45,642 nucleotides of DNA from Acidilobaceae archaeon. GTDB lineage: Archaea > Thermoproteota > Thermoprotei_A > Sulfolobales > Acidilobaceae. Positions 6,072-7,628 of this stretch are shown in pieces. Every line of letters starts with the position of its first letter. Position 1 is the first letter of the stretch. A program made the position numbers and the translations under genes. A model generated the notes under the pieces. That model had not been told where the DNA came from. It searched no databases and saw nothing but the letters and a program-made list of their open reading frames with translations. The stretch is from assembly GCA_026986415.1 (NCBI GenBank), contig JALSOR010000041.1, positions 1 through 45,642 on the forward strand, given 5' to 3'.

Positions 6072-6569
6072 TTATTTATTATTAAGTATCTTCTTAGCAC
6101 TCTTCAGCGTTCCAGACGTGGAAATAGGTAAGACCAAGACCTCGCAGTTAGAGATCCTACGAATAAGCCCTAGAGACCCCAAGACTTGATTTTTATAGTT
6201 ATTTCTAACCCGCAGGATCCCCCTTTTCAGGTGAGGATTGTAATAGACTAGTGCCACGCCGCTCTTAATGAGTCCTGGAGAGCCTAGCACCTCGCGGATA
6301 GTCTCTCTAAGTACTCTCCAGAGAGCCTGCTCGTCGACCTGGCAATCTCCTAGTACTTCAAACACGATATACCTCTTCTTAGGCTTCTGTTTTAATTCTT
6401 TTAATAATTTATTTATATTTTTATAATTTAAAATATTAAAAAGAATTCTGGATGCGGTCCTCTCCTTCAAACTAGCATACGCGCCTATAGACGCGACCAC
6501 CAGTGCGATTAGAGACATTGTAAGCGCCAATACGCATACCGGCTGCATACGTGAGACCACCCGCAGCAT
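6072..6569 (-). CDS. rnp2: RNase P protein component 2 (Pop5) with unusual N-terminal transmembrane extension
   Basis: Pop5 core KKRYIVFEVLGDCQVDEQALWRVLRETIREVLGSPGLIKSGVALVYYNPHLKRGILRVRNNYK; N-terminus MQPVCVLALTMSLIALVVASIGAYASL is hydrophobic. Confidence 0.8.
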   Translation of the reverse strand: MLRVVSRMQPVCVLALTMSLIALVVASIGAYASLKERTASRILFNILNYKNINKLLKELKQKPKKRYIVFEVLGDCQVDEQALWRVLRETIREVLGSPGLIKSGVALVYYNPHLKRGILRVRNNYKNQVLGSLGLIRRISNCEVLVLPISTSGTLKSAKKILNNK

Positions 6570-6572
6570 GAT

Positions 6573-6638
6573 ACCCCTCAGGGGAGAGTTAGACCTCTCA
6601 TCTCAATAGTCGATGGTCGGTCTCTTCATCATCGGGTA
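6573..6638 (-). ncRNA. Candidate C/D-box sRNA (or C/D-like k-turn leader element)
   Basis: Minus strand TACCC-G-ATGATGA(C)-AGAGACCGACCA-TCGA(D')-CTATT-GAGATGA(C')-GAGGTCTAACTCTCCC-CTGA(D)-G-GGGTA; TACCC/GGGTA terminal stem; TATA-like CTTAAATG upstream at about 6670-6680. Confidence 0.65.
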
Positions 6639-6748
6639 GTGCCAGGCTTAGTAAGACCCGAATAACGAAACATTTAAGCGTGAACGCTAAGATCGCATTC
6701 AACCCAATATTAGCAGTGAATTTGCTGTTAAGGCCGGGACCAAATACC

Positions 6749-6775: not shown

Positions 6776-6792
6776 AGCCTCTACTAGAGGCT
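6776..6792. repeat. Inverted repeat AGCCTCTA-C-TAGAGGCT
   Basis: 8-bp perfect arms, intergenic upstream of psmA. Confidence 0.6.
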
Positions 6793-6857
6793 CTTTTAGA
6801 GCGTGGTTAAGTAGAGTAGAATTAAAGGATACAAATGTCTGGGTAAGGTGTGCAAGG

Positions 6858-7628
6858 ATGGCGCTTGGAGTTCCACCTACCGCGTATGATAGGGCGACGA
6901 CTATATTCTCTCCAGAAGGTGATCTCTACCAGGTAAAATACGCGTTCGAAGCCGTCCGTAAAGGCTGGACAAGCCTAGGAGTCAGGTCAACAAGGGGGGT
7001 AGTTATAGCCGCTGAGAAGAGGAGGCTCACCCCGCTACTAGATCTTGACGGTATAGAGAAGATATACCGGGTAGACGATCATATCGGGGTGGCCTTCGCC
7101 GGCATGGGGAGCGATGGCAGAATACTCATAGATCAGGCACGTCTTATAGCCATACGACACAGGCTAACCTACGGTGAGCCGGCAACCGTCGACTATGTCG
7201 CGAAGGCAATAGCGGATATTAAGCAGATATACACGCAGCATGCCGGGGTCAGACCTTTCGGTGTATCACTAATTTTCGGAGGCGTAAACCCGGACGGCCA
7301 GCCAAGACTGATTAAGACTGATCCTGGAGGACAGTTCTTCAGCTATTACGGGGTAGTAATAGGCATGGGCGAGCGCTACGCTACCGAGATACTAGAAGAA
7401 TACTATAATCCCGAGGCCAGTTTAGAGGAGCTTATAGTTCTAGCCTTGAAAGCACTCTTCAGGGCTAGGAAGGAGACCAGTGAAGAGAACGTTGAGGAGC
7501 TCAAAAAGACGTTCTATAGCCTAGTCGAGATAGGCTATGCTAGTGTCGACGAGAAATACTTTAAGAAGGCAGAAAGAGACTATATTAAAGAGATTATAGA
7601 GCGTAACACGGATAAGATTTTCCAGTAG
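6858..7628 (+). CDS. psmA: 20S proteasome alpha subunit
   Basis: YDRATTIFSPEGDLYQVKYAFEAVRKGWTSLGVR proteasome alpha signature. Confidence 0.97.
   Translation: MALGVPPTAYDRATTIFSPEGDLYQVKYAFEAVRKGWTSLGVRSTRGVVIAAEKRRLTPLLDLDGIEKIYRVDDHIGVAFAGMGSDGRILIDQARLIAIRHRLTYGEPATVDYVAKAIADIKQIYTQHAGVRPFGVSLIFGGVNPDGQPRLIKTDPGGQFFSYYGVVIGMGERYATEILEEYYNPEASLEELIVLALKALFRARKETSEENVEELKKTFYSLVEIGYASVDEKYFKKAERDYIKEIIERNTDKIFQ

Follow-up and report, generated by a model that had tools for sequence, protein, structure and literature searches.

A psmA-adjacent C/D box guide sRNA gene, conserved across an order of thermophilic archaea, with predicted 23S rRNA targets at C2606 and G2056

Comparative analysis of the window, a stretch of 45,642 nucleotides from an Acidilobaceae archaeon (contig JALSOR010000041.1), identified a real small guide RNA that, judging from its sequence relatives, is conserved across an order of thermophilic archaea. 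We consider it very probable (roughly 0.88) that this locus is a housekeeping gene for a double-guide C/D box sRNA, with its own promoter, guides to C2606 and G2056 of the 23S rRNA and a probable role as a chaperone of helix 73. Its constant neighbour across the compared loci is psmA, read in the opposite direction. The anatomy, conservation and location of the sRNA, as well as the compensatory changes linking guides and targets, follow from sequence comparisons, whereas the steps from expression to methylation and chaperoning are discussed below as predictions. The features considered are the following:

6858..7628, plus strand: psmA, encoding the alpha subunit of the proteasome, next to the sRNA and divergent from it
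6671..6678, minus strand: TATA-like box CTTAAATG, predicted sRNA promoter (an AT-rich element recurs in homologues)
6572..6638, minus strand: double-guide C/D box sRNA, 67 nt (sequence, homology, alignment, held-out model)
6634..6638, minus strand: 5' strand of the terminal k-turn stem, TACCC, partner GGGGTA at 6572-6577 (the stem covaries)
6626..6632, minus strand: box C, ATGATGA, an exact RUGAUGA
6614..6625, minus strand: guide 1 (D' guide), AGAGACCGACCA, predicted target 23S GGUCGGUCUCU, D'+5 at C2606 (E. coli numbering)
6610..6613, minus strand: box D', TCGA, NNGA type (alignment of homologues)
6605-6609, minus strand: D'-C' spacer, CTATT (sequence)
6598..6604, minus strand: box C', GAGATGA (alignment of homologues)
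6582..6597, minus strand: guide 2 (D guide), GAGGTCTAACTCTCCC, predicted target in relatives 23S GGGAGAGAAGA, D+5 at G2056
6578..6581, minus strand: box D, CTGA, an exact CUGA
6072..6569, minus strand: pop5, RNase P protein component 2 (PF01900), start ATG 6569 or 6548
6468..6548, minus strand: hydrophobic, membrane-anchor-like N-terminal segment of Pop5 (hydropathy, open frames)

Every element that the first-pass annotation had quoted in support of a C/D box RNA was found on the minus strand between positions 6638 and 6572, where GGGGTA (6577-6572) is directly followed by TC and then by the ATG at 6569. Two details of that reading required adjustment. The proposed TACCC/GGGTA stem does form five pairs if the G after box D is skipped, but the k-turn register of the family consists of 3 bp and a bulge; and the TATA-like CTTAAATG, which had been placed 25-35 nt upstream, lies 33-40 nt from the 5' end of the sRNA. 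The D' box of the window is of the NNGA type only, yet the alignment of homologues indicates that NNGA is the norm in the family. An Rfam scan of the window at gathering thresholds yielded no match. A short inverted repeat, AGCCTC-TACTAGAGGCT, is present at positions 6776-6795, between the sRNA promoter and psmA.

BLASTN searches with the 86-base stretch against 197 genomes revealed matches (E 8e-10 to 2e-4) at the corresponding position next to psmA in other genera. Consistently, a held-out covariance model of 16 sRNAs, all from outside the genus of the window, recovered the sRNA with 50.8 bits (E 1e-13) as the sole significant match within the window, the next-best match scoring 12 bits. Homologues were present in 24 of the 43 psmA loci of the family that were read, 80-225 nt upstream of psmA and on the opposite strand. 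In the alignment of 22 homologues, the letters of the boxes, among them the T, G and G of box C, do not vary, nor does most of either guide core; the internal boxes are conserved as NNGA (D') and (G)AUGA/GUGA (C'). The D'-C' spacer varies in length from a few to >20 nt; long spacers that may fold into a hairpin, such as GCCCCTAGGGACATGTGGGGGC, occur in genus g3 (L044, L035, L047, L049). The terminal stem covaries, with 16 cells displaying two-sided change where shuffles averaged 5.0 (the nearest control being a +1 slide), and in 11 of the 22 homologues, G-C takes the place of the U.U pair in the k-turn. In 22 of 24 homologues, an AT-rich or TATA-like element precedes box C by ~25-50 nt.

An accidental likeness to C/D boxes in an intergenic stretch might be entertained since the boxes are short and the single-sequence fold of the leader is unremarkable (z -1.26), although the latter test is weak for C/D sRNAs, which have little internal helix. 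Set against this are the held-out homology (E 1e-13), synteny across families, covariation of the terminal stem and guide-target compensation; chance resemblance had already been refuted by BLASTN, the alignment, synteny and the held-out model, and we regard it as practically eliminated.

Order-wide searches with model R1 yielded matches at E <= 0.01 in 78 of 214 genomes, a set whose weak tail may include other sRNAs; strong matches fall in families f1, f7, f9, f10, f6 and f4. No homologue was detectable by the order-wide model search and the exact guide pattern in several genera (g4, g6 and g10), and the exact-pattern search for the C2606 guide, which covers this spelling only, found none in g4, g6, g10, g13 and one g1 genome.

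Neither 23S nor 16S rRNA was found in the assembly of the window, and targets were therefore sought in 23S genes of the same family, taken from nine of its members. Guide 1 pairs 11/11 with GGUCGGUCUCU, which spans 2603-2613 in E. coli numbering, and mapping onto the E. coli 23S aligns the D'+5 nucleotide with C2606. Both the proposed match to the conserved segment 3' of A2602 and the predicted modification site of the first-pass annotation were thus borne out. The 11 pairs cover the +5 nucleotide and exceed the minimum of nine pairs in the archaeal guide rule (PMC4644070). Guide and target also change together at position 2609: genomes G005 and G006 have U2609 in the 23S and A in the guide, families f6, f7 and f9 have A2609 and U in the guide, and G046 likewise follows the covariation, the exception being G016, in which guide A faces A2609. 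In f7, the +5 register on C2606 is preserved although the flanking guide letters differ. The 23S of genus g2 reads GGUUGGGCUCU at 2603-2612 and its psmA locus is without the sRNA; in 3 of the 4 g2 genomes, GAGCCCAACC is the guide of another C/D sRNA, encoded elsewhere in the genome, with the +5 position on U2606 (L219, L221, L222). Several 23S genes (L059, L060, L061, L065) are 0.4-2 kb longer than usual, probably due to introns, and that of L065 contains foreign sequence immediately before the C2606 region.

In 19 of 24 genomes, GGGAGAGAAGA (E. coli 2052-2062) is matched by guide 2 over 9 or more Watson-Crick pairs that put G2056 at D+5. In the window itself, the site is matched by 7 contiguous Watson-Crick pairs only, below the rule of at least nine, and the activity of guide 2 there is accordingly uncertain; a comparison of this guide with the 16S and 23S of the family turned up no site in keeping with the +5 rule that improves on the 7 pairs at G2056. 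The pairing score alone was no better than that of column-permuted guides, and we therefore relied on compensation. At position 2055, f7 genomes with C2055 carry the guide CTTCTCGCC (guide G), whereas A2055, found in the f7 genome G063 and in Acidilobaceae-type f1 genomes, is matched by CTTCTCTC (guide U). Another 23S site, TGGAGAGATGA, scores nearly as high for guide 2 in G046 but is absent from most other genomes. In I. hospitalis, the two guides, one for C2606 and one with the same TCTTCTCTC, are located on two separate sRNAs (L214, L215).

In the established secondary structure of the 23S rRNA, the strands of helix 73 are positions 2043-2057 and 2611-2625, and the two guides, with targets on these strands, would grip both of them. 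As the target strands lie ~550 nt apart yet form one helix, the sRNP is probably also a folding chaperone. The sRNA would be transcribed from its own promoter, away from psmA, and L7Ae, Nop5 and fibrillarin would assemble on the C/D and C'/D' boxes. Guide 1, positioned on 2603-2613, would then direct 2'-O-methylation of the ribose of C2606, next to the peptidyl-transferase centre, while guide 2, a good match in most relatives and a weak one in the window, would pair with 2052-2062 and place G2056 at D+5, the strands of helix 73 probably being held together before release. Excision from a pop5 leader would be incidental to this function.

The open reading frame downstream of the sRNA encodes Pop5, as the first-pass annotation had it (Pop5/Rpp14 domain PF01900, E 9e-18), with a start that is uncertain between ATG 6569 and, by comparison with relatives, ATG 6548. 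The gene just downstream is variable. In 17 of the 27 family loci, pop5 follows on the same strand (g1, g5, g7, g8, g11, g12, g13), and in the other 10 it does not (6 genomes of g3, 3 of g9 and 1 of g14). The sRNA sits beside pop5 without psmA in g8, and in g12 and most of g1, it precedes a candidate start of pop5 by a few nt; within the genus of the window, box D is separated from possible pop5 starts by 8 to ~29 nt. In g5, g7 and g13, a second sRNA and ~100-200 nt separate the sRNA from pop5. This tandem C/D sRNA, ATGATGACGCCGTCCCAG...CTCACGAC..CTGA (L050, L051, L052, L056, L034, L053, L055), has a D guide that pairs with 23S CGTCGTGAG, with D+5 at ~U2593 in helix 93. In other families, the sRNA runs antisense to pop5 or lies at a distance from it. 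A divergent psmA adjoins the sRNA in f1, f7, f9 and f10, and f7 retains the sRNA with no pop5 just downstream, whereas in f9 and f10, pop5 and psmA are co-directional and the sRNA lies antisense between them. Given this variation of the pop5 neighbourhood, the position in the Pop5 leader is one of several arrangements.

These arrangements bear directly on the proposal, advanced in the first-pass annotation, that L7Ae, once bound to the k-turn, masks both the Shine-Dalgarno sequence of pop5 and its start, linking the supply of RNase P with the assembly of sRNPs. The box D stem of the window does end 3 nt before ATG 6569, the close spacing recurs in g12 and most of g1, and other mRNAs are under L7Ae control through k-turns (PMC5539422). 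However, a leader k-turn has no need of the two conserved guides, and the k-turn is not conserved together with the downstream ORF in g3, g9, g14, f7, f9 and f10: 10 of the 27 family loci keep the sRNA with no pop5 just downstream, it is antisense in f9 and f10, and further RNA and spacer intervene in g5, g7 and g13. The Pop5 start is itself uncertain, and Pop5 is unnamed in the main text of PMC5539422. Hence L7Ae coupling of Pop5 supply is not supported as a conserved function, and a leader switch as the main role of the locus appears very unlikely. A milder version, in which a true guide sRNA also sets pop5 expression in the genus of the window through its excision or RNP assembly, for instance because the pop5 mRNA would be left almost without a leader or transcription would be reduced, is also unlikely, though less so. 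The sRNA and pop5 share promoter and strand, and 5' overlap with an ORF reduced reporter transcription (Tripp 2017, as summarized in the review PMC7994747); on the other hand, the distance from box D to the start varies within the genus, the arrangement is missing from several sister genera, and such overlaps are read in the literature as by-products of sRNA gene birth. A cis effect on pop5 in this genus is possible on the basis of these parallels. The more specific idea that, where the sRNA abuts pop5, its excision as an L7Ae sRNP sets the amount of membrane-anchor-bearing Pop5 strikes us as improbable; if true, methylation at the peptidyl-transferase centre would be tied to the supply of membrane-held RNase P. 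The reading that we favour, a housekeeping guide RNA, places the function of the sRNA in its guides: the neighbouring gene is not what keeps it.

The extension of Pop5 on which that idea depends is a separate observation. The pop5 ORF of the window encodes ~60 residues before the solved Pop5 domain, including a hydrophobic stretch, compared with ~12 residues in archaeal crystal structures; solved Pop5 structures of other archaea are without the extension. Every Acidilobaceae genome examined has an extension of this kind, as do 27 of the 28 other genomes taken from families f2-f14 of the class, G051 being the one without it (loci L194-L213, L175, L180, L183, L185 and L190-L193; window 6468-6569, minus strand). 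The mean Kyte-Doolittle value of the 19-residue hydrophobic segment is mostly 1.7-3.4; the stretch is weakest in f7, with best 19-residue means of 1.4-2.6, and weak in G082. A literature search for membrane-anchored archaeal Pop5 found no report. Hydropathy and open frames suggest a membrane-anchored RNase P in Thermoproteia, and this N terminus may be a more surprising lead than the sRNA.

The guides of archaeal C/D sRNAs have been described as evolving rapidly, at loci that vary. A single locus that is traceable through an order, with guides that track the 23S, offers strong comparative support for the C2606 mark, and guide 2 names a concrete site, G2056, together with the idea of a helix 73 chaperone. 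By sequence comparison, 3 aspects are new: an orthologue adjoining psmA and divergently transcribed from it in at least 4 families, guide letters that change along with positions 2609 and 2055 of the 23S, and, in 19 of 24 genomes, a second guide with a match of at least 9 bp around G2056, on the other strand of helix 73.

Leaders with L7Ae-binding k-turns are known for the l7ae and nop5-fibrillarin mRNAs (PMC5539422) and, like the sRNA of the window, place a k-turn before an ORF; the sRNA differs from them in that its second pair of boxes is complete and both its guides are conserved, and it is not tied to the downstream ORF. The closest known relatives in function are the archaeal C/D sRNAs that target C2606. 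In Dennis 2015 (PMC4644070), each of the six thermophiles studied has C/U2606 among its predicted targets, and the group (Iho sR6, Pca sR30, Sac sR13, Mka sR3, Neq sR10, Tte sR152) belongs to the same RNA class and shares the target of the window sRNA (alignment U/C2880 corresponds to E. coli C2606). Targeting of C2606 by this RNA class, and hence the main function of the sRNA, was thus already known. The C2606 guide is the D' guide in Iho sR6 and Mka sR3, as in the window, whereas the second guide differs, addressing C2807 in Iho sR6 and G2056 in the family described here; an I. hospitalis sRNA with a C2606 guide was recovered in our searches, its second guide not being matched to C2807. The same paper proposes distant double guides as rRNA folding chaperones (Table 3, including Neq sR15/sR17), in which two guides hold the strands of one rRNA helix that are distant in sequence, a design that the sRNA here would share; the present sRNA would grip helix 73 of the 23S, at the catalytic centre, a site pair absent from Table 3. 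Finally, where the other guides of the six C2606 sRNAs are called unrelated in that paper, here both the locus and the guide pair can be traced through an order.
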